Origin: Streptomyces mobaraensis
GTDB lineage: Bacteria; Actinomycetota; Actinomycetes; Streptomycetales; Streptomycetaceae
Assembly: GCF_020099395.1 (NCBI RefSeq)
Contig: NZ_CP083590.1
Span: 5,270,001 to 5,334,000, forward strand
DNA: 64,000 nt
Direction: 5' to 3'
Shown: one piece after another, positions 10,143 through 37,369 of the stretch
How positions within the stretch are numbered: the first letter of the stretch is position 1
How the letters are laid out: each line of letters begins with the position of its first letter
Program-made: the position numbers and the translations under genes
Notes under the pieces: model-generated
Seen by the model: only the letters and a program-made list of their open reading frames with translations
Database searches by the model: none
Told to the model about the DNA's origin: nothing

Positions 10143-10363
10143 CGCCGGCCGGGCCGTACGGGCGGGGGCCGAGGACCTACGGACGCGGGCCGAGGCGGTA
10201 CGGGCGGGGGCCGGGGGAGGAGCTGAGGTCCCCCGCCCGGATCTGGCCCGTTTCCGACGTGTACGTCCGCACCCGGTAGCCCGAACGATGCGGTCCGGAT
10301 GCGCCGGGCCGCCGCGCGGGCCACGCTGGTCCCGTACCGTGCCCGCCGGCCCCGGAGGCAAGC

Positions 10364-10915
10364 GTGTCCGACCGTGCCCGTGCCCGCCGCACCGTTGTCG
10401 TCCTGCCGCTGGTCTGCGGCCTGTTGCTGGCCGGTTCGGCCTGCGGCGGCGACAAGAAGGAGAAGAAGTCCGCCGGCGAGGCGAGTCCGACGAGCTCGAT
10501 CGAGAAGCAGAAATTCGCCAAGACCCGGTTCGTCGCCAACGCCGGGCTCGCGTCCGGCGCCGCCTACCAGTGGATCATCAAGCCGTACCGCAACGGCGCG
10601 TTCAAGAAGGGGGCGGACGGCCGTACGGGCGCCCTCGTCAAGGCGGGCCTGGCCGGGGTGTTCACCTACAACCGCCTCAAGGCCGCCACCCGCAATGCCC
10701 AGGGCGACCCGACGCTCTCCAAGGCCCTGGCCCCCGTCAACGCCGGCATCGACTCCCTCAAGGGGCTCGGCACCAAGCTCCGCAAGGGCGACGCCACCGA
10801 CGGCGACGTGAACTCCGTCGACAGCGTCATCAACAAGGTCAAGGACGCGGGCAAGAGCGCCGGAGCCCCCGTCACGGACAAGGTGCCGTCGGCGGGCGAG
10901 CTCCAGAAGGGCTGA
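10364..10915 (+). CDS. Lipoprotein of unknown function
   Basis: 183 aa from a GTG at 10364. The signal sequence ends in the lipobox LAGSAC, so the mature protein should be lipid-anchored at Cys. The mature part is Lys-rich, begins with a charged spacer (GGDKKEKKSAGEASP) and looks helical, with no domain I recognise. It lies 220 bp downstream of the prenyltransferase-fold gene; the gap holds two copies of a TACGGGCGGGGGCCG word. Probably its own transcript. Confidence 0.8.
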   Translation: MSDRARARRTVVVLPLVCGLLLAGSACGGDKKEKKSAGEASPTSSIEKQKFAKTRFVANAGLASGAAYQWIIKPYRNGAFKKGADGRTGALVKAGLAGVFTYNRLKAATRNAQGDPTLSKALAPVNAGIDSLKGLGTKLRKGDATDGDVNSVDSVINKVKDAGKSAGAPVTDKVPSAGELQKG

Positions 10916-10973
10916 CCGATAGCCGCCCGCCGGGGTTCCCGGCCCCGGCGGCCGGCCGGGAGCCGATGACAGC

Positions 10974-12470
10974 ATGGGGCCCATGAACCGGACGCCGGAA
11001 GCCGCCCCCCGCTCGGTGCCGTACCGGACGCCGCCCGCCGCTCTCGCCCTCCCGCTCGCCCTGGTCCTCGTGCTCGTCACGGGCTGCGACGGCGGGGGCG
11101 GGGGCGGCGGGGGCCCGGAGGAGGGCGGGACGGGCGTCGGCGACCCGGTCTTCCCCACCCTCGGCAACAGCGGCTACGACGTACGGCACTACGGCCTGAC
11201 CCTCGACTACCGGCCCGACGGCAACGCCCTCGACGGCAACGCCGTCATCACCGCCCGCGCGACGAAGGAACTGAGCGCGTTCACCCTCGACCTGACAGGA
11301 CTGAAGGTGACGTCCGCCAAGGTCGACGGGAAGCCCGCGAAGACCTCCCGCTCCGGCACCAAGCTCAGGATCGAACTGGCGCACCCGCTCGCCAGGGACC
11401 GGGAGTTCCGCGCGGAGATCGCCTACGAGGGCCGGCCGAAGACGATCCGCGACCGGGACGGCGCCACGGAGGGCTGGGTCGAGACGGACCACGGAGCGGT
11501 CGGACTCGGCGAGCCGGAGGGCTCGATGGCCTGGTTCCCGGGCAACCACCACCCGTCCGACAAGGCGGCGTACGACTTCACCGTCTCCGTTCCCAAGGGC
11601 TTCACCGCCGTCGCCAACGGCGAGTCGCGGGGCACGAAGACGGTCAAGGACGAGCACGGGGACGACTGGACCACCTTCCGCTGGCACAGCGGCGAGCCGA
11701 TGGCGAGCTATGTGGCGAGCGTGGCGATCGGCGAGTTCAAGACGCTGGAGACGACGGCCCCGGCGGGCGGGGGCAAGGGCGACGTGCCGGTGTACATCGC
11801 CTACGCGGCGGGGGAGGACGCGGCCGGGCGGCATATGAAGGAGATGGTGCCCAAGGTGCTGGCGTGGGAGGAGAAGCTGTTCGGCCCGTACCCCTTCGCG
11901 TCGTCCGGCGCGGTCATCGACCGGAACCCATACGTCCACTATCCGCTGGAGACCCAGACCAAGCCGTACTACGAGAAGCCGCCGAAGGACAAGATCATCG
12001 TCCATGAGCTGGCCCACCAGTGGTTCGGCAACTCCGTCACCCCGCGCACCTGGCGCGACATGTGGCTCAACGAGGGCTTCGCCCAGTACACCGAGTGGAT
12101 GTGGGAGGCGCAGCAGCAGAAGAAGCGCACGGAACGGCAGATCTTCGACGACTACTACGACGGCAGGGACCCCGAGAGCCGCGGCGAGGAGGGCGAGGAC
12201 ATCTGGGCCTTCCCGCCCGCCTATCCGACCGCCGAGACGATATCCGGCCGGCCCGTGTACGGCCGGGGCGCGATGGTGCTGCACAAGCTGCGCGAGACCG
12301 TCGGCGACGCGACGTTCTTCGACATCCTCCGCACCTGGGCGCGCGACCACCGGTACGGCAACGCCGGCACCGACGATTTCATCCGGCTCTGCGAGAAGAA
12401 GGCGGGCCGTGACCTGGGCGACCTCTTCGACACCTGGCTCTTCAAGGCGGCCAAGCCCGACCACCGCTAG
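10974..12470 (+). CDS. M1-family zinc metallopeptidase, predicted lipoprotein
   Basis: 498 aa. The signal peptide ends with lipobox LVTGC, followed by a Gly-rich linker. The catalytic motif is HELAHQWFGN with the downstream zinc ligand in WLNEGFA (HEXXH-x18-E). The usual GXMEN exopeptidase motif is altered here to YPLETQT, so substrate handling may differ from classic aminopeptidases. It lacks the long C-terminal HEAT-like domain of aminopeptidase N, giving about 500 aa, typical of secreted actinobacterial M1 enzymes. The ATG at 10974 sits 11 bases after GGGAG; an ATG at 10983 is possible. Confidence 0.92.
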   Translation: MGPMNRTPEAAPRSVPYRTPPAALALPLALVLVLVTGCDGGGGGGGGPEEGGTGVGDPVFPTLGNSGYDVRHYGLTLDYRPDGNALDGNAVITARATKELSAFTLDLTGLKVTSAKVDGKPAKTSRSGTKLRIELAHPLARDREFRAEIAYEGRPKTIRDRDGATEGWVETDHGAVGLGEPEGSMAWFPGNHHPSDKAAYDFTVSVPKGFTAVANGESRGTKTVKDEHGDDWTTFRWHSGEPMASYVASVAIGEFKTLETTAPAGGGKGDVPVYIAYAAGEDAAGRHMKEMVPKVLAWEEKLFGPYPFASSGAVIDRNPYVHYPLETQTKPYYEKPPKDKIIVHELAHQWFGNSVTPRTWRDMWLNEGFAQYTEWMWEAQQQKKRTERQIFDDYYDGRDPESRGEEGEDIWAFPPAYPTAETISGRPVYGRGAMVLHKLRETVGDATFFDILRTWARDHRYGNAGTDDFIRLCEKKAGRDLGDLFDTWLFKAAKPDHR

Positions 12471-26227: not shown

Positions 26228-26264
26228 GCGGACGAGCCGGCCTGTCCGCCGGGGATAGTCTCCC
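26228..26264. other. Putative left attachment site (diverged rnpB 3' end)
   Basis: Aligned with 36957-36993 it matches at 28 of 37 positions, including CGGACGAG, CGCCGGG and GTCTCCC blocks. It also forms a hairpin and could instead be the hydrolase terminator. Confidence 0.5.
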
Positions 26265-26342
26265 TATGGGGTCTGACCTGCTGCTTCATCCCCCTGGGCT
26301 GCCTGATCGCCACTGAATCGCCACATGTCTGAGGACCGCCAC

Positions 26343-27569
26343 TCATGCCGCCTCCTCGTACTCCTCCACCTCCACCACGGCGGGCGGCGGCACGAAGTGG
26401 GTACCGGTGAGGGTGAAGACGCTGTCCAGGAACTTCCGCCCGGCCGCAGCAGACCCGGGCACCTGGTGCTTATACGTCCCCTCGGTCTCGGCCTCGGACG
26501 CGTGCCCTACCCACAGGCTCACCTCCGACAGCGGCGCGCCCTCCTTGAGCGCCGTCGAGATGAACGTGTGCCGGAGGTCGTGGAACCTGAACCCGTCCGG
26601 CAGCCCGACGGCTGCCCTGGCCTTGTTCCACTGCTTGTAGAAGGCGTCCCGTCGGATGAGGTTGCCCCGGGAGGTCACGAAGAGAAGGTCCCGACCGCTG
26701 GGAACGTTCTCCTCAACGTGCTTGAGGACGACGGCCTTGGCCAGGTTGGGGAACGGAACCTCGCGGCCGAACGACGTCTCCGTCTTTGCACCGTCCACCA
26801 GTACCGCTTTGGACCTGACTTTGATCACCTGGCGCTTCACCACGAGGGTCCCACCATCGAAGTCGATGGCGTCCCGGCAGAGCCCGAACGCTTCACCCGA
26901 ACGGAGTCCGCAGCATGCGCCGATCAGGACCAAGGCTCGGTAGTGCTTGGGCAGCTCCTCGTAGAGACCCATGACCTGGGCCAGGGAGGCGGGTATGACG
27001 CGTCTCTTCGTGAGCTTGGGAAGGTCGATGTCGACGCACGGAGAGAAGGGGATGACCCGTTTCCTGACCGCCGAGTTGATGCAGGCCCGGAACGTCTTGT
27101 AGACGAGGTGGACTGTTGCAGGCGCAAGACCCTTGGCTGTCAGGCCGTTGATCCAGCGCTGAACGTCGGTGGGCTCTATCTTGTGGAGCCGCATCCCGCC
27201 GAACTCGGGGGAGATGTGGTTCCGCATGTTCCGCTCGTACGAGTCCTGTGTGCCGGGCTTCCGTTCCTTGGCCACGAGCCATTCGGCCGACCACTGCTTG
27301 AACGTGGTCTTCAGGTGCCGGGGCCGAACAGCGATCCCCTGCGACTTGGCTTCGCGTACCTTCCGCTCGTACGCCTGGGCTTCCGACTTCTTCTCAAAGG
27401 TCATGTCGGCCGTGTCGCCGTTGGCGTCGCGGACTCGGGCCGTCCAGCCGTGGGAGCAGCCTTTCCGCTCGCACTGGCACCGTCCCCGACACATGCACTT
27501 GGCGGGGTCCTTGTGTCGGCACTGGTCAGCGCACAGGCAGGGGCACTTGCACCGCTTGGTGACCGCCAT
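26343..27569 (-). CDS. Tyrosine-family site-specific integrase with a Cys-rich N-terminus
   Basis: 408 aa from an ATG at 27569. The C-terminal catalytic domain has the first Arg in GLRSGEAFGL, the HxLRHT box (FHDLRHTFISTALKEG), H in WVGHASE and the nucleophile Tyr in TEGTYKHQ. A core-binding (SAM-like) domain spans about 90-180. The first 40 residues hold about a dozen cysteines (KCPCLCADQC, CMCRGRCQCERKGC), an unusual extension that may bind zinc. It should recombine the element into and out of the rnpB 3' end. It starts 5 bp after the winged-helix gene. Confidence 0.95.
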   Translation of the reverse strand: MAVTKRCKCPCLCADQCRHKDPAKCMCRGRCQCERKGCSHGWTARVRDANGDTADMTFEKKSEAQAYERKVREAKSQGIAVRPRHLKTTFKQWSAEWLVAKERKPGTQDSYERNMRNHISPEFGGMRLHKIEPTDVQRWINGLTAKGLAPATVHLVYKTFRACINSAVRKRVIPFSPCVDIDLPKLTKRRVIPASLAQVMGLYEELPKHYRALVLIGACCGLRSGEAFGLCRDAIDFDGGTLVVKRQVIKVRSKAVLVDGAKTETSFGREVPFPNLAKAVVLKHVEENVPSGRDLLFVTSRGNLIRRDAFYKQWNKARAAVGLPDGFRFHDLRHTFISTALKEGAPLSEVSLWVGHASEAETEGTYKHQVPGSAAAGRKFLDSVFTLTGTHFVPPPAVVEVEEYEEAA

Positions 27570-27574
27570 GTTGA

Positions 27575-28138
27575 TTAGTTGCCTTCCTGGTCGTCGAAGA
27601 GGGCCGCCGCGCGAGCCTCCAAGATGGCTTGGCACCGCGCGGTGATCTGGTTGTCGTCGTCGATGAGTCCGGCCTTGCGCAGCTTCGCGATGCGGGTGGA
27701 GACCGTGGACTGAGCCAGCCCCGTCCGCTCTGTCAGCGCCTTGACGGGGGAGGTCTTGCTGATGCGGTTGATCAGCATCCAGGCCACCGCCCAGACCGCG
27801 TAGTCGGCATCATGGCGGCACCGCTGGGGCAGGTCGTCGAACGGCGTTCCCCACACCTCGGACAGCGCCAAGTCTTCCTTCACCCTGGCCAGCAGACTGC
27901 GGGCCTGAGCTTTGACCTCTCTCAGTGGAAAGGTCCGCAGGGCATCCACGGGCACCCCGCCGGCTGCTTCATCGTCCGGGCCTTTCAGAAGGACTGACAC
28001 CTTCCCTGGCCCTTCGTAGGGCGCCCACAGCGGACAGGTTGCACGCAGCAGCCAAGGGCCGCGTCGCTCCTCCCAAACGAGAGTCTGTGGGTCGTTCGGA
28101 TCGTCGAGCCGCCAACCAGGCGGCAGGTTTGTCTTCAC
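27575..28138 (-). CDS. Winged-helix regulator upstream of the integrase
   Basis: 187 aa. The start is a GTG at 28138 without a ribosome-binding site; TTACCT 11-16 bases upstream could be a -10, so a leaderless start is possible. The C-terminal 60 residues are a MarR-like winged helix (LTERTGLAQSTVSTRIAKL). The N-terminal half (PPGWRLDDPNDPQTLVWEE) is not recognised. It is divergent from xis and cotranscribed with int, so it may set the integrase/excisionase balance. Confidence 0.78.
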   Translation of the reverse strand: MKTNLPPGWRLDDPNDPQTLVWEERRGPWLLRATCPLWAPYEGPGKVSVLLKGPDDEAAGGVPVDALRTFPLREVKAQARSLLARVKEDLALSEVWGTPFDDLPQRCRHDADYAVWAVAWMLINRISKTSPVKALTERTGLAQSTVSTRIAKLRKAGLIDDDNQITARCQAILEARAAALFDDQEGN

Positions 28139-28252
28139 GTCGGCAAGGTAACACGATTCGAATTGGCAGAGTGCATCGACATGCGCGTAATCTCTGAACT
28201 CTCGGGCGGCGGGCTTGAACCCGTGCCCGGCAACTGAGCCCAGAGGAGGACG

Positions 28253-28426
28253 ATGCAGCCCAAGCTGATGACCGTTGACGAGGTGGCCGACTACCTGACC
28301 AAGCCCCGGTCCTGGGTGTATGGGAACTGGAAGCGTGAGCGGATCCCGTTCCGGAAGGTCGGGCAGTCCCTCCGGTGCCGGCCGGTGGACCTGGATCGCT
28401 GGCTGGACGAGCAGGGGGCGGAGTGA
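28253..28426 (+). CDS. Excisionase-like MerR/HTH_17 protein
   Basis: 57 aa, starting MQPKLMTVDEVADYL and ending RWLDEQGAE, with a GAGGAGG site directly before the ATG at 28253. The winged helix pattern (MTVDEVADYLTKPRSWVYGN, IPFRKVGQSLRC, VDLDRWLD) is that of DNA-binding excisionases. It is coupled to the next gene by a GTGA overlap. It probably directs excision and may act as a repressor of int. Confidence 0.87.
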   Translation: MQPKLMTVDEVADYLTKPRSWVYGNWKRERIPFRKVGQSLRCRPVDLDRWLDEQGAE

Positions 28427-28950
28427 GCCGCCGATTCGTCAAGGTCTACCGGCCGGAGCACACGAACCCGGCCATCGGATGCGCGACGCTCCACCTGGAG
28501 CTGCGCATGTGGTTGCTGGCCATGGACCGGATGCAGCGGGGCGGGCACGCTCCGCTCGGCTCGGGGGAGTTGCAGGCCATCCTGACGAACGAGAAAGGCG
28601 AGCCCTACAGCGCGGGGCGCTACCGGCAGGCGCGCCTGTCCCTCATCAAGGCCGGACAACTCGCACCCTCGGCATCGGCGCGGTGCCTGCTGGTGCCGCA
28701 CGGGGTGGCCTCGCTGGATGCCAGGTCGGTCCGTAAGCGGGAGGAGTGCGCTACGCACGGGCACAACATCGCCTGGGACGACGCTCAAGAGGACTGGATG
28801 TTCGGCACGATGGAGGAGGCGCAGCAGTGGGAGGCGGAGTGCGACAACATCGCCCGCCGCGGCGGCGCCTTCGCTTCGGCAGCCTGGGCCCGTGGTGTGC
28901 GGAACCGCCTGAGTCGGGGCGTTAACGGAGTGACGACCTCGGCCGCTTGA
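28423..28950 (+). CDS. Element-encoded protein of unknown function
   Basis: 175 aa from a GTG at 28423, overlapping the xis stop. The first 90 residues look like a winged-helix or replication-type domain (HLELRMWLLAMDRMQRGGHAPLGSGEL, YSAGRYRQARLSLIKAGQL); the rest is charged (CATHGHNIAWDDAQEDWMF). It probably acts with xis in control or replication of the excised form; no firm assignment. Confidence 0.72.
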   Translation: MSRRFVKVYRPEHTNPAIGCATLHLELRMWLLAMDRMQRGGHAPLGSGELQAILTNEKGEPYSAGRYRQARLSLIKAGQLAPSASARCLLVPHGVASLDARSVRKREECATHGHNIAWDDAQEDWMFGTMEEAQQWEAECDNIARRGGAFASAAWARGVRNRLSRGVNGVTTSAA

Positions 28951-28971
28951 TATCAAGAGCGAGTTCTACGG

Positions 28972-28989
28972 CCCCTCTTAATAGAGGGG
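28972..28989. terminator. Hairpin after the xis operon
   Basis: CCCCTCT-TAAT-AGAGGGG, a perfect 7-bp stem, 21 bp after the stop of the 175-aa gene. Confidence 0.7.
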
Positions 28990-29087
28990 TGAAGGCCTTG
29001 GCCGAACCCCGTGCAGGTGGGCCGCTGTGAGGCGGCCCCCTACAGTGACATGCGCCACATCTCCAAGCGGTACCGTCACCAACCCCA

Positions 29088-29138
29088 GTAGGTGACACCT
29101 ACGTACTTAATGAAGAGAAAAGTTAGTTCAGTTCTCTT
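29088..29138. promoter_or_regulatory. Two short palindromes, candidate operators
   Basis: GTAGGTG-A-CACCTAC at 29088-29102, and AAGAGAA (29113-29119) with TTCTCTT (29132-29138). They lie in AT-rich DNA upstream of the XRE gene and are candidate sites for that regulator. Confidence 0.55.
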
Positions 29139-29148
29139 GAGTTGAAGA

Positions 29149-29183
29149 TTGAGTCACCCCCCCTTTAAGGGGGGGTGACTCAA
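29149..29183. repeat. Long perfect palindrome upstream of XRE
   Basis: A 15-bp stem, TTGAGTCACCCCCCC with its complement, around TTTAA. It could act as a transcription terminator insulating xis from the capsid operon, as an operator, or as an origin element. Confidence 0.85.
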
Positions 29184-29215
29184 CTTCTCACTGAGACTTC
29201 TTGCTTGGAGAGTGA

Positions 29216-29587
29216 GTGAATCTCTATGACCCTGTGCGCGGCAAGGCGCGCCGAAAGGAACTGGGCCTGTCTGCCGCTCGCCTCGCCAATCTCTGTGGTG
29301 TCTCGGCAACGGCCATCTACAAGTATGAGAGCGGGGAACTCCGTCCGAGTTTCCTCACTTCCGTCAGGCTTGCTCACCACCTACGCGTCAGCATCGCTGA
29401 GCTAGTGGAGCAAGTAGTTCAGGATCCGGCCGATGACAACGACGGTCGGGCCGTGCTTATCAAGGCCATTTATGCAGCCGAGGCACTGCGCCACGAGACG
29501 CAGGGATCGGGTCGAATCCTGATGGCCAAGGCTGACGCCAATGCGGCGGAGAAAGATCGAGCCGCTTTCGAGGCCAGGGGCCTCTAG
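29216..29587 (+). CDS. XRE-family regulator
   Basis: 123 aa from a GTG at 29216 with GGAG just upstream. The helix-turn-helix spans about residues 14-63 (KELGLSAARLANLCGVSATA, IYKYESGELRPS). The remaining 55 residues are helical, with an Ala/Glu-rich end. It directly precedes the scaffold and capsid genes and probably controls them, as a phage repressor or activator would. GC is lower than in the chromosomal genes. Confidence 0.87.
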   Translation: MNLYDPVRGKARRKELGLSAARLANLCGVSATAIYKYESGELRPSFLTSVRLAHHLRVSIAELVEQVVQDPADDNDGRAVLIKAIYAAEALRHETQGSGRILMAKADANAAEKDRAAFEARGL

Positions 29588-29638
29588 GTCATCTACCCCA
29601 AAGAGCCCTTCGAATCACGACACTTAGGAGGTGTCGCT

Positions 29639-30007
29639 ATGAGCGACGAAAACCCCACCACCGATGTGACCGAGGTCCAGCCGGCTGACGCCATCGATCC
29701 CTTCGAGGCTGTTCGCGCCGAGGCTCGTGCCGAGGTGCAGCGCGAGTATGCCGCCAGGCTGGCGCTGGTTGAGTTCAAGGCCCAAGCAGCCCATGACGGT
29801 GTAAACGTATCCCACGTCCTTGAGTACATAGACGCCCCAAAGCTTCTTGGCGAGGACGGTTGGCCTTCGGCGGAGAACATCCGTGAGGCGGTGCGGGTGC
29901 ACGGGGAGCCGACAGGGCTGGACCTCCCCAAGCTGATGGGAGCGGGCCACTACAGCGGCCGTGGCGTTGGCGTACCCGTACCGTCCCTTGACGGTCGTCG
30001 CCGATAA
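29639..30007 (+). CDS. Scaffold-like protein
   Basis: 122 aa from an ATG at 29639, with a near-perfect ribosome-binding site (TTAGGAGGTGT). Acidic, coiled-coil rich N-terminal half (EAVRAEARAEVQREYAARLA), then a short Gly-rich basic C-terminus. Size, composition and position 17 bp before the capsid gene match phage scaffolding proteins, which line the inside of the procapsid and interact through a basic tail. The assignment rests mainly on context. Confidence 0.62.
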   Translation: MSDENPTTDVTEVQPADAIDPFEAVRAEARAEVQREYAARLALVEFKAQAAHDGVNVSHVLEYIDAPKLLGEDGWPSAENIREAVRVHGEPTGLDLPKLMGAGHYSGRGVGVPVPSLDGRRR

Positions 30008-30024
30008 CAAGATAGGAGATTTGC

Positions 30025-30939
30025 TTGACTTACAGCTATCAGAATCAGTTCAGCCACTCTTTTGTTCCGGAGGTTTGGAACACTGAGCTACTGACACAGT
30101 TTGACTCACAATTGGTGTGGGCCTCCCGTATCGTGTGCAACAGGGCCTACGAGGGAGACATTCGCAAGCAGGGCGACGTTGTTCATGTTAACTCGCTGAT
30201 GCGACCCACTGTGGGGGATTACAAGCTCCCGGACGGGATGACTTCTCAGCGGCCGGAGACTGTTGACCAGGAACTTCAGATCACCGAAGCGAAGTACCTT
30301 CAGGTGCTCGTGGAGGACGTCGAAAAGGTTCAGTCAGCCGGGGGGCTGCGCTCCCCGATTAACCAGGAGATGATCCGGGCTCTAGCTCGCGAGGCCGATG
30401 CTTTCATGGGCAACGTGATCGCGAAGGGGGCCACGCCGCTCCCCAATGTCAAGGCCGTCCCTGGGAATGCCCCCCAAGCGCTCTATGGGACTGTCCTAGA
30501 CATGATGCTGGCCCTGGATGAAAACGACGTCCCCCCGAATTTCAGGTATGTGGTGGTCTCGCCGCGTGTTAAACGCTACCTGATTGAACATCCGGCTATT
30601 GCCAACGCTGGAGCCTACGGTGAAGCCGGTGTGACGATTAATGGGGTCGTGGCGCGTCTCGCTGGCTTCACGGTGCTGTCTACCACGGCTATGCCCAAGG
30701 GAGTGGACATGGTGGCAGGGCAGCTAGGTTTTGCCACTTACGCCAGTCAGTTCATCGGGTTCCGCCTGGGGCAGTCAGAGAAGTACCGGGGCGACTATAT
30801 GGATACACTCCACCTCTATGGCGGAAAGATCGTTCGGTACCCGGGAATGGACACCCAGAAGCCAGGCAACGTGTTCGATGAATCGAAGCCGACCAAGGGA
30901 ATCGTGAAGGCCGCTGTGGAGTGGCCGACTGCTGCTTGA
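30025..30939 (+). CDS. Phage major capsid protein (P22-coat/HK97-fold type)
   Basis: 304 aa from a TTG at 30025, with AGGAG 7 bases upstream. The N-terminal FVPEVWNTELLTQFDSQLVW and YEGDIRKQGDVVHV blocks, followed by VDQELQITEAKYLQVLVEDV, are typical of actinophage capsid proteins. The length is complete and the frame intact. Codon usage is less GC-rich than in the host. No protease, portal or terminase gene is nearby, so assembly would need a helper phage or yield an empty shell. An encapsulin role is possible but no cargo is evident. Confidence 0.82.
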   Translation: MTYSYQNQFSHSFVPEVWNTELLTQFDSQLVWASRIVCNRAYEGDIRKQGDVVHVNSLMRPTVGDYKLPDGMTSQRPETVDQELQITEAKYLQVLVEDVEKVQSAGGLRSPINQEMIRALAREADAFMGNVIAKGATPLPNVKAVPGNAPQALYGTVLDMMLALDENDVPPNFRYVVVSPRVKRYLIEHPAIANAGAYGEAGVTINGVVARLAGFTVLSTTAMPKGVDMVAGQLGFATYASQFIGFRLGQSEKYRGDYMDTLHLYGGKIVRYPGMDTQKPGNVFDESKPTKGIVKAAVEWPTAA

Positions 30940-30956
30940 TTTTGTAGAGATGATGT

Positions 30957-30994
30957 GGGGCCTCTGCCAATTCGGCGGAGGCCCCCCTTTTTTT
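30957..30994 (+). terminator. Rho-independent terminator after the capsid gene
   Basis: A 12-bp stem (30957-30968 with 30974-30985, one G-T pair) followed by CC and seven T residues. Confidence 0.95.
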
Positions 30995-31558
30995 GTTGAG
31001 TCAGGACTAACCCGGGGGATGCTGCTCAGCTTCTTCTCGCTTTCCGTCCTGCAAGGAGTCAGCCGGCCATCGGCACACCGTGACAATGGGCTTGGCCATC
31101 TTGGGTGGACGGCTTCCCGCGCCTAGGTGTTCGAGTAGATGTCATTTCGCCATTCCGTGAGGTTGAGGCCGCAGATGGGGCGCGACTCACACTCAAAGGC
31201 CCACATTCCATTCCTTATTGCCTCTGTTGAGCCGCCCCACATCTCATTCTTCAACCCTGAAATGCAGTAGAGGTTGAGACTTCTGAATGTTTGATACCCG
31301 TACACGGTCGGAAAGAGGCACCCCCGGTGGGTCCTTTTTCTTTCAATCTAATGATATCCCCCGGATGCATTAAGCGGGAAGAGTTTTGGGCGTGTTAGTG
31401 TCTATGAATTGATTCACGGCCCAATTTGGATTGAGTTAGTTCGTTTGCAGGGCATGATGATTTCGGTTCCGCCGACCGGCGATCGTGCGGACCGGGAAGG
31501 GTCGCCAAGAAGGATCCGGCTCTCCTCGCCTCTCAGTCCCAACGAACTAAGGAATGCC
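30995..31558. other. AT-rich intergenic stretch after the capsid operon
   Basis: No strong gene. One weak minus-strand frame is listed separately. A T-rich segment (TTTTTCTTTC near 31337-31346) and AT-rich DNA around 31350-31440 may hold the promoter of the BRCT-Lsr2 gene. Confidence 0.5.
31123..31305 (-). CDS. Doubtful small ORF
   Basis: 60 aa from a GTG at 31305, with no clear ribosome-binding site. Composition is protein-like (three Cys, several Trp/Tyr: FECESRPICGLNLTEW), but nothing is recognised. It may be a degraded phage gene fragment. Confidence 0.25.
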   Translation of the reverse strand: MYGYQTFRSLNLYCISGLKNEMWGGSTEAIRNGMWAFECESRPICGLNLTEWRNDIYSNT

Positions 31559-32320
31559 ATGCGCAAGACGGTTCTGGTCCCCGTAGAAAAGGTTCTGTGC
31601 GATGCCCACATCGCGAAGGACGGAACCGAGGTGGAAGCGTCATCGACTCTGGCATTGGGAAGGTACTCGTGGGACCTGTGCTTGGAGCACGACGTTGTGT
31701 TCGGCCGCTACCTGTGCGATGCACTGGGCACCCCTGCCGAGGGGGAAGCAACCGAGTCGGAGCCCCTGAGCGCGCCGGTTCCTGAGTTTGATCCCGCACC
31801 TGTGGTTGAGCCGTCACCTGTCGTGGCGGAGTGCGAAGCGCAGGACGCGAGCGAGGAAGCGAATGAGCCTGAGCCTGTGCGGTCCGTGATGATCGCGGGT
31901 GAGGTGCCGGGATACGACTGGGACACCGCACGAGAAGCCGTGCGCAACCTGGGGTACGAGGTGGTGGGGCGTGCCGATGACTCCACGGTTCTTCTGATCC
32001 TTGGTGAGCGTGGGGAGCATGCTGGGCACAAGCTTCGGGACGCCGCTGAACGTGGGTTGCCGGTGATGGATGTCCAGGCCCCGGGCCGGTTCAAAGATGC
32101 CGTAAGAGCGGGGGAGTTGGTTGGTGGTGACCCGATTCCTGAGCCGGTGAAGACCGGTCGGTCGGGGATGAGTGAGCGGGAGCGGAACCGGTTGGTTCGC
32201 TCGTGGGCCCGTGAGAACGGATACAAGGTGCCCGACAAGGGACGCATACCGATGCACGTGCGGCACGCCTACGAACTGAGCCGCAAGACCATGCCCGAGG
32301 GAAAAGCGGTAGCGGCCTGA
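31559..32320 (+). CDS. BRCT-like / Lsr2 C-terminal domain fusion protein
   Basis: 253 aa from an ATG at 31559, with AAGGA 5 bases upstream. Residues 1-60 contain two cysteines (LCDAHIAKDG, DLCLEHD) and may form a small metal site. An acidic linker (about 60-115) follows. Residues about 115-185 resemble a BRCT fold (VMIAGEVPGYDWD, VLLILGERGEHAGHKLRDA, LPVMDVQ). The end matches the Lsr2 DNA-binding domain (RLVRSWARENGYKVPDKGR then IPMHVRHAYE), which binds the minor groove of AT-rich DNA. It probably silences or organises element or phage DNA. Confidence 0.8.
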   Translation: MRKTVLVPVEKVLCDAHIAKDGTEVEASSTLALGRYSWDLCLEHDVVFGRYLCDALGTPAEGEATESEPLSAPVPEFDPAPVVEPSPVVAECEAQDASEEANEPEPVRSVMIAGEVPGYDWDTAREAVRNLGYEVVGRADDSTVLLILGERGEHAGHKLRDAAERGLPVMDVQAPGRFKDAVRAGELVGGDPIPEPVKTGRSGMSERERNRLVRSWARENGYKVPDKGRIPMHVRHAYELSRKTMPEGKAVAA

Positions 32321-32408
32321 AGGTCGCCCCCGCTGCGGCGGGCGCTCCATGCGCCCGCCCTCCCCGGTTGCCTCACCTTCAACTCTCACTCATGGACTTC
32401 GAGGAAGC

Positions 32409-33743
32409 ATGACCACCCCCGCCTTCTACGGTCCGATCGGCCGTGCCGTCCGTAAGCTCGCCCCGTTTACGGAAACCGATCCCCTCGGCATCTACGTGGC
32501 TCTCCTGTCGATGTGGTCGGCCGCGATCGGCGGCACGGTCAAGGTGTCGTCCCGTGGCTCTGCCCGCCCTGTGCTGCTGTGGTCGGCCCTGGTGGCCGGA
32601 ACGGGACGCGGTAAGGGAACCGCGCTCCGGGCCGCTCATCACGCCCTGGACAAGTCCCTGGGCCGCTTCTTGGCCACCCACACCACTTCTGGGATCACCT
32701 CCGGGGCCAGCCTCGTCAACCACCTGTGGGACCAGCAGGAAGCCACCGCCGAGACCGAGCATGGTCGGGACGTGCGGGCCCTGGTGGTGGAAGAGGAATG
32801 GACCGAGGTACTGAAGCGGGTCAAGCGCGATCCGTCGTTTACGACCAAACTCCGGGCCGCGTGGGACGGGGCCACCCTCCGGAACACCACCAAGGAAGAG
32901 GCGCAGGAGGTCCGCGATCCCGCAATGGTGCTGCACTCCCACATCACCCCGTCCGACTGGGCCAAGTACGTGGGCGAGTCGGAAGCGGCCGGGGGGTCGT
33001 ACAACCGCATCCTGCCCTTTCTCCTGGGGTCGGTTCCGATGCTGGACGACGACCGAGTGAGCCTGCCGAAGGTTGACGGCGCCGAACTGGCCGACGCCTA
33101 CGGCTGGGCCACGGCCCGCCCCCGCGTGATCACCCTTGCCGAGGACGCCCGGCCACTGTGGCGAATTGTGCGACGGTACGCCCGCATCCTTGGTGAGACG
33201 CTCCCGGAGACACAGGCAGTCTTCATCGAACGGACCGCAGAGCAGACGCTCAGAGTCGGGGCCTGCCTTGCCGCGTCCGAGTGCTCCGAAACCATCACGG
33301 AAGAGATGCTGTGGGCGGCGCTCACCCTGGTGCGCCGCTCCGTCCAGGATGCTGTCCGGATCAGCAAGGGGGCCGACGCGCCCAAAGTGAAGCGGCAGCC
33401 GCTCAGCCTTGCGGACAAGGTCCGGGCCCGGATCGAAATGCACGGTGGTCGGGCTACGTCGTCCCAGATACTTCCGTACGTGGGTGCTACGGCCGCCGAG
33501 GTCAAGGCGTTGCCTGGCATCGTCGTGAGCAGAGAGAAGAAGGGGAACGGGGGGCGCCCCGCCAACGTCTTCCGCCTGGCCGAAGTGGAGACGCATTCTC
33601 CCCCTGCGAGGCAGCTGGCCCGCGTGGAGGATGAGAACGGTCCCGCGACGGTCGTCCGACTGGACGCCTATCGGTCCACGCCCGAGCCGATCACTCGGCC
33701 CGGTCCGGACCCGGAGGGGAACCCGTTCCTAGCCCTGCTCTGA
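32409..33743 (+). CDS. DUF3987-like P-loop ATPase (replication-type)
   Basis: 444 aa from an ATG at 32409 with GAGGAAG adjacent. Walker A is AGTGRGKGTAL and a Walker B-like acidic run is ALVVEEEWTEV. The order of conserved blocks (AVRKLAPFTETDP, GRGKGTA, WDGATLRNTTKEEAQEV, GGSYNRILPFLLG) matches the DUF3987/primase-helicase-like proteins found on phages and integrative elements. Such proteins are thought to help replicate the excised element. A C-terminal winged-helix-like segment (GRATSSQILPYVGATAAEVK) is visible. Confidence 0.8.
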   Translation: MTTPAFYGPIGRAVRKLAPFTETDPLGIYVALLSMWSAAIGGTVKVSSRGSARPVLLWSALVAGTGRGKGTALRAAHHALDKSLGRFLATHTTSGITSGASLVNHLWDQQEATAETEHGRDVRALVVEEEWTEVLKRVKRDPSFTTKLRAAWDGATLRNTTKEEAQEVRDPAMVLHSHITPSDWAKYVGESEAAGGSYNRILPFLLGSVPMLDDDRVSLPKVDGAELADAYGWATARPRVITLAEDARPLWRIVRRYARILGETLPETQAVFIERTAEQTLRVGACLAASECSETITEEMLWAALTLVRRSVQDAVRISKGADAPKVKRQPLSLADKVRARIEMHGGRATSSQILPYVGATAAEVKALPGIVVSREKKGNGGRPANVFRLAEVETHSPPARQLARVEDENGPATVVRLDAYRSTPEPITRPGPDPEGNPFLALL

Positions 33744-33762
33744 CCGGTAGCCCGAACAAACG

Positions 33763-33794
33763 AAGTCCCCCACCCAAAGACGGGTGGGGGACTT
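33763..33794. terminator. Bidirectional terminator
   Basis: A perfect 13-bp stem (AAGTCCCCCACCC with its complement) around AAAGAC, between the convergent ATPase and hemC genes. Confidence 0.92.
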
Positions 33795-33863
33795 TGCCGT
33801 GACCGTTCACGCTTCGGGTGACTCCGCCCGGTCGTCAGCCTTCACCGGGAATCCGGATGGGGT

Positions 33864-34829
33864 CTAGTGAGGGATGCCCTCGATGATGTCCCGGGCACCC
33901 TGCCGGAGTAGTTCGGCGGAGACACGGGCACCGAGGGTGCCGGGGTCGTTCGATGCCTCGCCCCAGATGTGGGCGTGAACGAACTTCGAGCCATCGCGGG
34001 AGAACACCATGCCACGCAGGCTGAGTTGTCCATCGGGATCGGTAGTGCAGTACCCAGCAATGGGGCTGTTGCAGTGGCCCCGAAGGCCGTGCAGCATGAC
34101 CCGCTCGGCAGTGGCCTCGGTCTGCGTCTTGGGGTCGTTCAGGCGTTCCAGCAGGGCTGCGACGGGGCCGTCGTCGCGGCGACATTCCAGGGCGAGGACG
34201 CCGGCGCCCACGGCCGGAAGGATTTCGTGCACCGAGAACTCGTGGCGGATCCGGCTTTCGATGCCGAGTCGTTCCAGTCCGGCGCGGGCGAGCACCATGG
34301 CTTCTGCCTGAAGATCACCCTTCTTGCGGTCGAGCTTCTCGACGCGGGTCCCGACCGCGCCGCGCACCCTGATCACGTTCAGGTCGGGGCGCACCTTGAG
34401 GATCTGGGCCTTGCGACGTACAGCTGTGGTGGCCACGGCGGCGCCGGGGGGAAGATCTGCCAGTGTCTTGACCGTCGATCCCTCGGGGACCAAGAGAACG
34501 TCCCGGACGTCTGCCCGCGGGAGCATGGCGGCGAACACGAGGCCCTGCGGCATCGGGACGTCACCGGGCACGTCCTTGAGGCAGTGGATCGCCATGTCAA
34601 TGTCTCCGCGCTGAAGTTGCGCGTCGATGTCCTTGACGAACAGGCCCTTGCCGCCGAGCCGTGCAAGGTCCCCCTGCCAGAGGTCCGCCTCCGTCGTAGT
34701 GGGCTTCACCTGGATCGCAAGGCCGGGCACCAGTTCGCGGAGGAGCTGGGAGACGTGTTCGGTCTGAGCGAGTGCCATGGGTGAACTGCGGGTGCCGATG
34801 CGCAGGGGGCGGTCGGCGAAGTCGGTCAT
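33864..34829 (-). CDS. hemC: Hydroxymethylbilane synthase (porphobilinogen deaminase) paralogue carried by the element
   Basis: 321 aa from an ATG at 34829, the usual HemC length. N-terminal IGTRSSPMALAQT, catalytic Asp in CLKDVPGDVP (usually HSMKDVP), Arg residues in VRGAVGTRVEKL, and the dipyrromethane-cofactor Cys in LRGHCNSPIAGYC (usually GGCQVPI). HemC joins four porphobilinogens into hydroxymethylbilane in tetrapyrrole synthesis. Streptomyces normally has a chromosomal hemACDB cluster, so this is probably a second copy, with no other hem gene beside it. It is translationally coupled to a NUDIX gene (ATGA). Whether it makes tetrapyrrole or has another role is unknown. Confidence 0.92.
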   Translation of the reverse strand: MTDFADRPLRIGTRSSPMALAQTEHVSQLLRELVPGLAIQVKPTTTEADLWQGDLARLGGKGLFVKDIDAQLQRGDIDMAIHCLKDVPGDVPMPQGLVFAAMLPRADVRDVLLVPEGSTVKTLADLPPGAAVATTAVRRKAQILKVRPDLNVIRVRGAVGTRVEKLDRKKGDLQAEAMVLARAGLERLGIESRIRHEFSVHEILPAVGAGVLALECRRDDGPVAALLERLNDPKTQTEATAERVMLHGLRGHCNSPIAGYCTTDPDGQLSLRGMVFSRDGSKFVHAHIWGEASNDPGTLGARVSAELLRQGARDIIEGIPH

Positions 34830-35299
34830 GAGGTTCCTTCCGGGTGCCTTGTCTCGCGGTATGAGGTGCTGTTGGGCTGATGGAGCCACGGGACGATGCG
34901 GGCCGCGATGCGGGGGTACTGCGAGATCAAGTCGCCGACAGGCATCCAGCGCCAGAAGGCGATCTCGTCGTGCTGCAAGATGATGCTCTCCTCTTCGTCG
35001 GGCCGGAGTTGGGGGCCTGCGAAGACGAACACGAGCCGGTCGCGTCGCCCGGGTCGGGTGGCAGCAAGCCATTCGACGGCTGCCAGTTCGCGGATGCGCT
35101 CGCCGAGGTCGAGGTTCAGTTCTTCGCGGACTTCCCGCCGAGCGGCGTCAAGAGGGGACTCCCCCTGCTCGACGAGCCCGCCGGGAAGCATCCACGGCGC
35201 GTTCTGCTTCGCAGGAGTAACAACGAGCGCATGCCCCTGGGAGTTAGTGATCAGCACGCAGGACCTCATCGGGTGTCCCGGTGCGGGAGTGACGGTCAT
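34826..35299 (-). CDS. NUDIX hydrolase
   Basis: 157 aa from an ATG at 35299. The Nudix box runs GGLVEQGESPLDAARREVRE then ELNLDL; the usual Gly of EExG is Asn. Nudix enzymes hydrolyse nucleoside-diphosphate-linked compounds. The gene overlaps hemC and is its likely operon leader. Substrate unknown. A 9-bp stem at 35351-35376 lies in the upstream region. Confidence 0.9.
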   Translation of the reverse strand: MTVTPAPGHPMRSCVLITNSQGHALVVTPAKQNAPWMLPGGLVEQGESPLDAARREVREELNLDLGERIRELAAVEWLAATRPGRRDRLVFVFAGPQLRPDEEESIILQHDEIAFWRWMPVGDLISQYPRIAARIVPWLHQPNSTSYRETRHPEGTS

Positions 35300-35509
35300 A
35301 CGGCTTGACCTTGTCGTGGAAGTCGGTGTGTTCGCACGTGGGGTTCCTGTCCCTCCGCTCCCCTCGTAGCGGAGGGGCCGGAAGCAAGGGCAAGGAGCGT
35401 TGCCGGTCGCTGTGGCGCCACCAGGTGGACGGTGGGGCCCGCTCTCCGCCGGCCCCGCGTTGCGGAGCGCTGCGCGGGAGTACAGGAGTCGCCATCGGAG
35501 AGCGGAAGA

Positions 35510-35638
35510 TCAGGAGTGGTGCGGGTTGCCGAGAATCGCCAGGGAGACCGCCATCGCCGTGGAAAGGACGACGGTCAAGGCCCAGATGGGCCCCGCCCAG
35601 CGGAGGATCTTCCGCCGGATCACGACTGCCTCATCCAT
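35510..35638 (-). CDS. Small single-pass membrane protein
   Basis: 42 aa, starting MDEAVVIRRKILRWAG, with one hydrophobic helix (PIWALTVVLSTAMAVSLAIL). It overlaps the end of the DUF7848 gene by 19 bp. Such small membrane proteins recur in Streptomyces integrative elements; function unknown. Confidence 0.55.
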   Translation of the reverse strand: MDEAVVIRRKILRWAGPIWALTVVLSTAMAVSLAILGNPHHS

Positions 35639-35859
35639 GCGCGCCAACCGCGCTTGACGATCTCCGTGTAGGAGTTGTGCGACGGGTTGGTCTTCACGTG
35701 GTGGAAGATCCACTGCGTCGCCTCGTCCTCGTCGGTGCCCCTTGGAGACCCCTCGCCGCAGATGTCGCATTCCAGGGCGTACGTGGGCCGTTTGGCGTCC
35801 GGCTCCCCGTCGAGTTGGACGGTCCAGTTGGCCATCCGGATCACAGTGCGTACAGCCAT
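35620..35859 (-). CDS. DUF7848-family protein
   Basis: 79 aa from an ATG at 35859, with AAGGG upstream. It follows the family pattern: VIRMANWTVQLDGEPDA, then CDICGEGSP, then HHVKTNPSHNSYTEIVKRGW. One CxxC pair. These proteins are common beside XRE regulators in Streptomyces mobile regions; function unknown. Confidence 0.8.
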   Translation of the reverse strand: MAVRTVIRMANWTVQLDGEPDAKRPTYALECDICGEGSPRGTDEDEATQWIFHHVKTNPSHNSYTEIVKRGWRAWMRQS

Positions 35860-35974
35860 GCAGTTCGTCCCTTCTCCATGGCCCCCGTCGTGGAGATAGG
35901 TCTACCGGCGGTTTCTGTAGTGGCGCGGCGACCGTCAAGGCGTCATATCGGCGTCATTCATCGGTCAAAAGCCA

Positions 35975-36003
35975 TGACGGACTGTCGCCTTCGGGCCTAC
36001 TGT
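35975..36003 (+). promoter_or_regulatory. Promoter of a leaderless XRE gene
   Basis: TGACGG (-35, 35975-35980), 17-base spacer, TACTGT (-10, 35998-36003), with the GTG start 6 bases later, so the transcript probably begins at the start codon. Two CGTCAT words at 35941-35946 and 35952-35957 may be operator half-sites. Confidence 0.65.
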
Positions 36004-36009
36004 CGAAGC

Positions 36010-36789
36010 GTGGCCGAACCGAACACGATCCTTCGCGCCGTGAGAGTCAGCCTGCGTATGTCCCAGGATGATCTTGCCCGGGCTATACGTGAGGCCGGTC
36101 AGGAGATTGGGCAACCGAATGAGTGTGCAAAGCGCAACGTTCAGCGGTGGGAGTCGGGAGCGGTCGGGATGCCCCGGCCCGTCTACGTGAGACCCCTGGA
36201 ACGAGTGACCGGCTTGCCGATTGAGGCCCTAGGGTTCGCCCTACCGGTGCCGAACGCTCGATCGAAAAATCCGGCCGTGATGAACGGCCACGGGCCGGTG
36301 CAAGGAGAGGTGGTAGAGGTGGGAGCCGCAACAGCCCCGGAAGGCACTGCCCCCATGCCCAAACAAAGCAACCACGGGACACTGTCGGGTATCTGGCTTT
36401 CCCGGTACGAGTACCACTCGTCCGGCCGGGGATCCGACTTCACCGGCGAACACTTCGTCGTCATCATCCAGCACGGCAACAAGCTGACCGTGCGGTCCCT
36501 GCCGGAAGGTTCCTCCAACCCGGATTCCCCGCTGACGATGGACCTGACCGTGGACGGCAACGTCGTCACGGGTACGTGGCGGGAGGAGACCGCTCAGTGC
36601 GGTTACTACGCCGGGGCGGTCTACCACGGGGCGCTGCAACTGCTCGTCGAACCTACTGGCCGAAAGATGATCGGCAAGTGGGTCGGCTTCGGGAAGGACT
36701 TCGATGTGAACACCGGCCCGTGGGAGCTGACGTTCAAGGACGCGTCCACTTCCAAGACCACCATGGCCGAGTACAACCGGCGCCCCTGA
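36010..36789 (+). CDS. XRE-family regulator with a C-terminal beta domain
   Basis: 259 aa from a GTG at 36010. N-terminal helix-turn-helix (ILRAVRVSLRMSQDDLARAI, CAKRNVQRWESGAVGMPRP). A linker follows, then a C-terminal domain of about 140 residues rich in beta strands (LSGIWLSRYEYHSSGRGSDF, GNVVTGTWREETAQ, KMIGKWVGFGKDFDVNTGPW) found in many actinobacterial XRE proteins; it may bind a small ligand. Probably leaderless. It is the rightmost gene of the element. Confidence 0.85.
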   Translation: MAEPNTILRAVRVSLRMSQDDLARAIREAGQEIGQPNECAKRNVQRWESGAVGMPRPVYVRPLERVTGLPIEALGFALPVPNARSKNPAVMNGHGPVQGEVVEVGAATAPEGTAPMPKQSNHGTLSGIWLSRYEYHSSGRGSDFTGEHFVVIIQHGNKLTVRSLPEGSSNPDSPLTMDLTVDGNVVTGTWREETAQCGYYAGAVYHGALQLLVEPTGRKMIGKWVGFGKDFDVNTGPWELTFKDASTSKTTMAEYNRRP

Positions 36790-36899
36790 CAGCCTTCGCT
36801 CCGGCCTCCACCGCCGCCACACCATCGCCACACGATGCCCGGAAACGGGCTGGAACGGCCATGATCACCCAGGAATGACGCGGTGGGCGGCTCAGCAGC

Positions 36900-36938
36900 A
36901 AAAGGCCCCCTGACCTGCTGTTTAAGCAGATCAGGGGG
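36900..36938 (-). terminator. rnpB terminator (reads on the minus strand)
   Basis: A 14-bp stem with one mismatch (36906-36919 and 36925-36938), followed on the minus strand by CCTTTT. It lies on the element side of the junction. Confidence 0.85.
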
Positions 36939-36956
36939 TCTGTCGCAAGATGGCCG

Positions 36957-36993
36957 ACGGACGAGTCGGCTTATACGCCGGGTTCTGTCTCCC
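36957..36993. other. Putative right attachment site (3' end of rnpB)
   Basis: The last 37 bases of rnpB, similar to 26228-26264. Integration here would leave the RNA gene intact. Confidence 0.5.
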
Positions 36994-37369
36994 GGGGCCC
37001 TTGCGGGCCCTGGGGAGGCGGCCATCCATCTAGGCCTGCCGTTGCCGGCAGGCTCGTGCGGTCTACCCGCGGACTCGGGCGGGCAGCCCTCGATCGTCCG
37101 CGCAGGGCCGCCGGTGAAGGCGGCCCCTCTTGACCTTGCTCCGGGTGGGGTTTACCTAGCCGCCTGGGTCACCCCAGGCGCTGGTGGTCTCTTACACCAC
37201 CGTTTCACCCTTACCGGGAATCCGAAGATCCCCGGCGGTCTGTTTTCTGTGGCACTGTCCCGCGGGTCACCCCGGGTGGGCGTTACCCACCACCCTGCCG
37301 TGTGGAGCCCGGACGTTCCTCGGGGGATCCGAAGATCCCACGCGGCCGCCCGGCCGGCTCGTCCGCCGT
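36957..37369 (-). ncRNA. rnpB: RNase P RNA (bacterial type A)
   Basis: On the minus strand the conserved blocks are in order: GAGGAACGTCCGGGCTCCAC near the start, CCACAGAAAACAGACCGCC in the middle, GGTAAGGGTGAAACGGTGG, and ACAGAACCCGGCGTATAAGC near the end. The 5' GGACGAG pairs with the 3' CTCGTCC (P1). The RNA is the catalytic subunit that matures tRNA 5' ends. Ends are approximate. Confidence 0.94.

Follow-up and report, generated by a model that had tools for sequence, protein, structure and literature searches.

A 10.6-kb integrative element of Streptomyces mobaraensis with its own coat and scaffold genes: a probable phage satellite family of Actinobacteria

The window considered here is a stretch of 64,000 nucleotides from Streptomyces mobaraensis (NCBI RefSeq assembly GCF_020099395.1, contig NZ_CP083590.1, positions 5,270,001 to 5,334,000 of the forward strand). 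It contains an integrated element of about 10.6 kb, at about 26.27–36.92 kb of the window, which adjoins a full-length rnpB gene in a 7.67-Mb genome. In our view this element probably belongs to a family of integrative phage satellites of about 11 kb in Actinobacteria, which would provide their own coat and scaffold and borrow the portal, the packaging motor and the tail. We infer the satellite status, and likewise every dynamic step discussed below, by comparison: from gene content, conservation, repeats, the compensating lengths of two parts of the element, and modules common to prophages. The same comparison supports the view that a layout of coat plus scaffold without large terminase (TerL), portal and tail is a conserved, repeated architecture and not a one-off deletion. 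An earlier note on this DNA had proposed either a distinct satellite strategy or a domesticated shell; the capsid-plus-scaffold architecture on which it built has turned out to be conserved, and the satellite strategy stands as a probable reading of it.

A reduced gene order in three genera

One scan of a genome collection yielded 25 related loci (18 from Streptomyces, six from Nonomuraea and one from Acrocarpospora), which together with the window make up the 26 rows of our comparison. The order recombinase, scaffold, major capsid protein (MCP), DUF3987 is kept in 24 of the 26 rows and in all three genera, with DUF3987 lying 0.4–2.6 kb 3' of the MCP gene, and the gene order that the earlier note had singled out thus recurs elsewhere. 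In one row, L028, the scaffold was seen by tblastn only; it had been missed by the in-house codon-usage script that called the genes of the loci, and for this reason the absences of small genes such as that for the small terminase (TerS) are to be read as lower bounds. The two exceptions to the order are L029, where the contig ends, and L043, which has neither Lsr2 nor DUF3987. The latter, from Streptomyces endophytica, is a divergent locus in which the MCP is followed (9490–12080) by head-connector-like open reading frames (ORFs), one of them matching PF05521 (E=0.001), and, by inspection, an HNH-like ORF; it might represent a stage between phage and element. Seven loci have a serine recombinase instead of the tyrosine integrase, and with it the winged helix-turn-helix (HTH) regulator and the excisionase are gone as well. 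One S. capoamus genome contains two elements and one N. roseoviolacea genome three, and such multiple copies point to movement.

When 295 genomes of the genus were searched with the MCP (E≤1e-10), 24 gave a match, and the matches split cleanly into 13 places in 12 genomes, the window genome included, at 69–100% identity, and 13 places at 29–35%. In the MCP tree, with 26 rows from elements and 15 from elsewhere (two identical ones in each group), the element MCPs form one clade with a branch support of 100/100; the program gave a warning that long branches meet. Of 276 pairs, formed without L032 and L043, 235 had a dS below 1.5; over these the ratio of nonsynonymous to synonymous substitution rates (dN/dS) has a median of 0.15 and a range of 0–0.53, and most of the pairs that include the window come close to saturation. 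These values indicate that the element MCPs are under purifying selection.

A complete temperate phage has TerL, portal and tail genes, and the window element lacks them. The earlier note had reported it to be without terminase, portal, protease, tail or lysis genes, and this was confirmed: TerL, portal, protease, tail and lysis families had no match among the 14 window ORFs in scans with Pfam, PHROG and NCBIfam, and tblastn queries made of TerL and portal proteins from several lineages of phage gave no similarity in the element. The same TerL and portal search came up empty in 31 of 32 element loci, the exception being L045 with a TerL-like fragment of only 41 aa. Around the 29–35% MCPs, by contrast, both TerL and portal were found within ~20 kb in all nine of the prophage loci that were fetched out of the 13 places (in L095 the two were named by inspection, and L099 was matched to L095).

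The further statement that there are no packaging genes holds for the window element but not for all of its relatives. A TerS-like gene sits directly 3' of the MCP in seven of the 18 Streptomyces loci (Terminase_7 at E=6.6e-6, narrowly missing the cut-off; phrog_226) and also follows the MCP in two further elements, L104 and L105. Two of the seven Nonomuraea and Acrocarpospora loci have a TerS as well, of a different kind (phrog_1496 E=6e-19); in all, small terminases occur in 9 of the 25 relatives and belong to two families that are not related. No frame of the gap after the window MCP resembles the TerS-like gene. The family phrog_226 is labelled 'minor tail protein', yet it matches TerS genes that precede TerL as well as the seven element ORFs; we therefore rejected the tail name for these ORFs, and the family name is likely misleading. 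Some other labels were set aside too. As a terminase probe phrog_2 had no match in 14 viral records, two of which nevertheless have TerL by position and similarity, and its misses are uninformative. When 121 element ORFs were scanned with PHROG, 35 families were matched, 25 of them listed; a 'portal' label, phrog_15528 (E=2.5e-10, two ORFs), did not reappear when 30 of these ORFs were scanned in a follow-up. All 121 are at most 308 aa long, as against ~490 aa for a portal.

Could the element simply be a decaying prophage that has retained its capsid gene by chance? Complete prophages do have several modules in common with the elements, some copies (L103, G187) have decayed, and the TerL-like fragment of L045 and the connector-like ORFs of L043 look like what such decay would leave. 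A chance remnant is nevertheless improbable, given that the same reduced layout occurs in 24 of 26 rows in three genera, with one MCP clade, low dN/dS and a uniform length of ~11 kb; it might hold for the window copy by itself, were that copy unable to excise while its relatives can. The earlier note had also argued against simple decay, naming a related complete prophage or stop codons in homologues as what would speak for it. Related prophages were found, with the scaffold and Lsr2-DUF3987 in common and in one case the integration genes, but their coat is of another lineage, and finding them does not reduce the element to a simple remnant; and 12 of the 13 close MCP places in the 295 genomes contain no internal stop.

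Coat, scaffold and length of the element

The MCP of the window element (30025–30939, plus strand, 304 aa) matches the major head protein family phrog_267 with E=7.3e-46. Its AlphaFold2 model (pLDDT 79, pTM 0.80) has as best match in the PDB the capsid of mycobacteriophage Che8 (8e16, E=2.3e-13), and on the strength of this model the protein is predicted to be an HK97-fold coat. Among 50,697 phage records there were 353 matches, every one below 60% identity, and the best-ranked MCP was 33% identical. It is phiSASD1 and related prophages, with a coat of the phrog_267 type, that have this best-ranked non-element coat at 33%; they are unlike the element in that phiSASD1 is a complete phage with TerL, portal and protease, and the related prophage loci have TerL and portal.

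Encapsulins are also among the structural matches (for example EncA, E=6e-8, rank 24), and two enzyme genes lie inside the element: one for porphobilinogen deaminase (HemC, 33864–34829, minus strand, 321 aa, PF01379 E=1e-64) and one for a Nudix hydrolase (34826–35299, minus strand, 157 aa, PF00293 E=1e-22). One could thus imagine a domesticated, encapsulin-like shell which serves the host and has HemC and Nudix as client enzymes. Encapsulins are shells of the HK97 fold which take up cargo by a targeting peptide and have no scaffold; the element coat is predicted to have this fold, and the scaffold, which is present and retained, speaks against an encapsulin. The unit, moreover, has flanking repeats at different sites, tblastn with HemC gave nothing in the 25 other loci, and few of them have genes of the Nudix type; the downstream cargo in general differs from locus to locus. 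We regard a host-serving shell as very improbable. Two further hemC-like places, at 39–40% identity to the cargo HemC, occur elsewhere in the genome.

The scaffold gene (29639–30007, plus strand, 122 aa) stands directly before the MCP gene. Its family match taken alone is weak (phrog_4708 E=0.012); support comes from its alignment with scaffolds of prophages, which sit between portal and MCP. The element scaffolds track these prophage scaffolds along the body and then end in a short basic C-terminal tail, SLDGRRR in the window. The motif [LR]DxRxR is found at or near the C-terminus in 23 of 24 element scaffolds (that of L041 is shortened by the gene call, and in L033 an N follows the motif) as against none of seven phage scaffolds, which retain a longer C-terminal segment. 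Since the coat differs as well, the tail may be the part that binds the coat, and the body the part kept to match the portal of a helper. A terminator-like hairpin with a 12-pair stem and a T run (30957–30985, plus strand) closes the scaffold-MCP unit. The strong terminators and promoters of the earlier note thus hold up for the terminator after the MCP and not for the promoters, a sigma-70 scan having given 0 against a mean of 1.1 in shuffled sequences.

A scaffold of this kind also invites a different explanation, in which coat and scaffold are an interference cassette that poisons the assembly of incoming related phages, with packaging of the element secondary or absent. Satellites often interfere with their helpers, and a scaffold homologous to that of a prophage (the L031 scaffold is 57% identical to that of prophage G302), with the C-terminal part swapped for an LDxRxR tail, could be dominant-negative. 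The element coat, on the other hand, is only ~22–35% identical to prophage coats, and in pieces only, which makes co-assembly of the two unlikely; the length compensation described below and the TerS genes beside the MCP point to packaging. We consider interference as the main role unlikely. We give a little less credence still to a satellite packaged in the capsid of its helper, whose MCP and scaffold would act as remodelling factors or minor coat. The resemblance of the scaffold to the helper type suits this alternative; what speaks against it is a full-length HK97-fold coat under purifying selection, which to our knowledge exceeds the known resizing factors. The precedents are P4 and PLE, which shrink helper capsids according to PMC11389934.

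The length of the elements offers a further line of evidence. For 14 elements, namely 13 with flanking direct repeats of 18–41 nt and the window with its repeat of 11 nt, the length is 11,101 ± 256 bp (standard deviation), with a range of 10,628–11,427 bp. The two parts of the element vary more than the whole: the core (from the left repeat to the end of DUF3987) and the cargo each have a standard deviation of ~410 bp, and their lengths compensate each other with r=-0.80 (p=0.0005, permutation p=0.00015, n=14). The correlation is r=-0.89 (p=4e-5) for contrasts on the MCP tree (13 elements, 12 contrasts), and r=-0.85 without the window (n=13). The simplest reading of this compensation is a limit on total length of the kind a capsid would impose, though other causes are possible. 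Left out of the set were L045 (13.1 kb, with a transposase-like ORF) and L027, L030, L046, L049 and L105, whose best repeats are 14–16 nt; in L036, L037, L040, L041, L047, L051 and L102 a flanking repeat was sought and none was found, and L050 has a second possible repeat, which would give 11.6 kb. Several contigs with this MCP (P0005, P0016, P0017, P0021 and P0117) are 10.5–11.8 kb long, near the length of the elements, and could be excised circles.

The family consists of integrated elements, with a recombinase and direct repeats at the target site. In eight of the 14 elements the repeat is the 3' end of tRNA-Leu(GAG) (seven with the tRNA found by ARAGORN, L104 by the shared repeat). The best direct repeat of the window is the 11-nt CTGACCTGCTG, the longest between the two ends, with a candidate attL at 26273–26283 (plus strand) and a second copy at 36910–36920, which gives ~10.64 kb. 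The second copy, the candidate attR, lies in a terminator-like hairpin with a 14-pair stem (36906–36938, minus strand) on the side of the host RNase P RNA gene rnpB (36958–37361, minus strand), which is full length (RF00010, 284.5 bits, model 1–367 of 367) and lies at the right edge. The rnpB loci of 19 relatives include one, G012, in which the left-flank gene lies ~750 bp from rnpB as against ~12 kb in the window; this spacing fits an insertion at the window rnpB. The sequence between the two landmarks aligns too poorly between G012 and the window to set the junction, and the att core is therefore provisional. Relatives of the integrase, sought in the 295 genomes to confirm the site at rnpB, amounted to one other, at 35%.

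Modules in common with complete prophages

Of five viral contigs examined in slices, G296 and G302 were followed gene by gene and G298, G301 and G304 through similarity only. G296 and G302 have, by inspection, the order HNH, TerS, TerL, portal, scaffold, MCP, followed by tail and lysis genes; for G302, Pfam and PHROG support the naming of TerS, portal, scaffold and MCP. Prophages of this G302 type, temperate Streptomyces siphophages of ~50 kb (IMG/VR contigs behind L055–L070), are like the elements in their scaffold, their Lsr2-DUF3987 genes and a noncoding site, and G302 also in its integrase, excisionase and winged HTH. They are unlike them in having a full set of packaging genes and, by inspection, genes for tail and lysis, and in their coat, which in G302 is of a different lineage by tree and family scans. 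G302 compared with members of the element family is 62% identical in the integrase, 73–76% in the excisionase, 51% in the winged HTH, 57% in the scaffold and 60% in Lsr2; compared with the window it has 96.6% identity over 58 bp at the site and 69% of DNA letters in DUF3987. In G302 there is also an open frame of 2518 aa (L086, 752–8308), the end of which matches the Lsr2-like protein; this could be either a very large Lsr2 fusion or an artefact of the gene calls or of the assembly.

The early or replication module common to elements and these siphophages consists of the site, the Lsr2-like protein in Streptomyces, and DUF3987. In the window the site (31285–31360, plus strand) lies in the noncoding stretch between MCP and Lsr2, with its core GCACCCCCGGTGGGTCC at 31318–31334 and a ATTACCCC block ~20 nt further. 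With up to 5 mismatches allowed in 19 positions, it is in place in the window and in 14 of the 18 Streptomyces loci; of the other four, L032 and L042 carry a diverged form, L043 lacks it, and L029 stops short of it, while five of the seven Nonomuraea and Acrocarpospora loci have an altered form. The window genome contains the exact site once, inside the element. A scan of the viral collection for the exact site returned 19 stretches: two element copies (L053, L069), two chance matches with unmatched flanks (L054, L071), and 15 contigs of 32–60 kb with the extended site, two of which are near-identical around it. From the exact 17-mers in ~50-kb viral contigs the site could be taken for a shared cos, but we dropped this idea: its place in the prophages is in front of the early operon that has Lsr2 and DUF3987 at its end, at a distance of ~30 kb from the portal, and not next to the terminase. 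With at most one mismatch it is found at ~30 kb from a G302-like portal in the genomes G035, G146, G025 and G259; G031 has none, and in G167 site and portal are on separate contigs. Its position makes it a putative early promoter or origin. As RNA it folds no better than shuffled sequences, the covariation term is near zero, and Rfam gave no match. In one frame the stretch can also be read as a short conserved peptide, TRTxSEEGTPGGS...HYP, and a small ORF is possible; near-invariant third positions suggest a constraint at the level of DNA.

The module is completed in the window by an Lsr2-like protein (31559–32320, plus strand, 253 aa; Lsr2_DNA-bd PF23359 E=6e-13) with a weak BRCT-like stretch (BRCT E=0.057; NAD-ligase C-terminal phrog_3869 E=6e-5) and by a primase/helicase-like DUF3987 protein (32409–33743, plus strand, 444 aa; PF13148 E=2e-14; phrog_3022 DNA primase E=1e-5). 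Lsr2 is found in 17 of the 26 rows, among them all complete Streptomyces rows but one.

By comparison with its relatives, the 11-kb unit is moved into tRNA or other sites by its recombinase, together with an excisionase where this is a tyrosine integrase. Under our favoured reading of the element as a satellite, induction of, or infection by, a G302-like phage would be followed by excision and by replication with its own Lsr2-DUF3987 module. Its scaffold and coat would assemble a small shell, which would fix the length at ~11 kb, and the helper would provide the portal, TerL, head-tail connectors, tail and lysis. The scaffold, with a helper-like body and its own LDxRxR tail, may join the helper portal to the element coat. 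The TerS of some relatives would redirect the motor of the helper; the window copy is without one. A more far-reaching version, which we hold only tentatively and lean slightly against, is a split virion genetics in which the parasite gives nothing but the shell (coat and hybrid scaffold) and the helper gives portal, motor and tail, so that procapsids would be chimeric and the ~11-kb size would be set by the lineage of the coat and not by a resizing factor.

Several observations weigh against the satellite reading. An element coat of a different lineage would have to accept the helper portal. A search of the window genome at E≤1e-60 gave no G302-like portal, and therefore there is no resident helper of that type. 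With no recognised TerS in the window copy and 16 of the 25 relatives, the choice of their DNA is unexplained, and no cos or pac common to elements and prophages was found in the vicinity of the prophage TerS; motifs conserved there were sought in 26 elements without a convincing match. Lsr2 is absent from all seven Nonomuraea and Acrocarpospora loci, and the flanking repeat of the window is just 11 nt. The MCP of G187 contains a TGA, and L103 (9171–10336 in G090) is a decayed copy, an isolated MCP and shortened scaffold without integrase or replication genes; the same genome also has a full element, L102. As to a helper, elements co-occur with a G302-like portal of at least 58% identity in 2 of 6 genomes as against 12 of 295 (p=0.021, a threshold set after seeing the list); at the cut-off of the search itself the count is 2 of 13 (p=0.09), and the support is weak. 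In three prophages a hairpin-like stretch of ~35 bp, in which changes in the arms match, is conserved upstream of HNH-TerS (L084 12606–12640, L075 13554–13588 and L072 10776–10811); it is a candidate cos or terminator of these phages and was not found in the elements.

The other genes of the window element fill in the picture. In full the order is integrase and winged HTH on the minus strand, then excisionase, orf4, XRE1, scaffold, MCP, terminator, noncoding site, Lsr2-like and DUF3987 on the plus strand, then HemC, Nudix and DUF7848 on the minus strand and XRE2 on the plus strand, and the GC content falls from ~0.72–0.77 in the flanks to 0.57–0.68 across 26–37 kb. The tyrosine integrase (26343–27569, minus strand, 408 aa; PF00589 E=5e-19; phrog_1 E=7.5e-65) is followed by the winged-HTH regulator (27575–28138, minus strand, 187 aa; HTH_24 E=2e-5), whose family is present in 19 of the 26 rows, and by an excisionase-like HTH_17 protein (28253–28426, plus strand, 57 aa; PF12728 E=3.5e-10; TIGR01764 above the cut-off). 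Then come orf4 (28423–28950, plus strand, 175 aa), with relatives in several elements and no confident match in Pfam, PHROG or NCBIfam, and XRE regulator 1 (29216–29587, plus strand, 123 aa; PF01381 E=6e-13). At the far end are a DUF7848 protein (35620–35859, minus strand, 79 aa; PF25232 E=5e-28), which belongs to the cargo with HemC and Nudix, and XRE regulator 2 (36010–36789, plus strand, 259 aa), with an NsdA-family N-terminus at E=5e-11, below the cut-off, and a relative at 54% in L042. The earlier note had named the integrase, the excisionase, two XRE regulators, DUF3987, a scaffold-like protein and an intact MCP, all of which are present with open frames; it had missed the winged HTH, the Lsr2-like protein, HemC, Nudix, DUF7848 and the rnpB at the right edge.

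Comparison with known phage satellites

The phage-inducible chromosomal islands (PICI), including SaPI, and the P4-like satellites carry integrase, excisionase, regulators, a primase-like replication gene and sometimes TerS, and P4 is of similar size. They use the coat of the helper, often resized, and have no MCP of their own, unlike the window element, which encodes a full coat. The P4 marker genes sid, psu, delta and alpha did not turn up in the family scans of the window ORFs, which included no search aimed at P4 models. Capsid-forming PICI (cfPICI) borrow tails and carry a fuller packaging set with terminase and portal. The element is like them in having its own capsid genes, MCP and scaffold, and unlike them in that there are no packaging genes in the window and TerS only in 9 of 25 relatives. 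PMC11389934 describes cfPICI as making their own capsid and also names tycheposons.

Closer in host are MulchRoom and MiniFlayer (records OQ784832 and OQ357865), which PMC10690885 describes as Streptomyces satellite phages with their own capsids. They are likewise small and have their own scaffold (133 and 158 aa) and MCP (311 and 296 aa), and MulchRoom, whose capsid measures ~44 nm in the same source, encodes an integrase and an Lsr2-like protein as well. In contrast to the window element, which is without TerL, portal and adaptors, both encode TerS, TerL, portal and adaptors, and they are described there as having no primase, whereas the element has a DUF3987 gene. BLAST found no similarity between their MCPs and that of the element, and none to their TerL or portal in the window element. 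No paper on the element family was found in the open literature, a scope that takes in few subscription papers and hardly any preprints and is no proof of absence.

PMC10023795 scores an element as an intact prophage if it combines an integrase with one or more domains of capsid, tail or portal, and states that the experimental validation of satellites lags behind in Actinobacteria. If particles are made, the family would fill a gap between satellites that resize the capsid of a helper and those that carry a full packaging set. It would mean that coat and portal can stem from different genomes, would provide a natural system for testing how portal and foreign coat are matched by a scaffold, and would give Actinobacteria a widespread satellite family.

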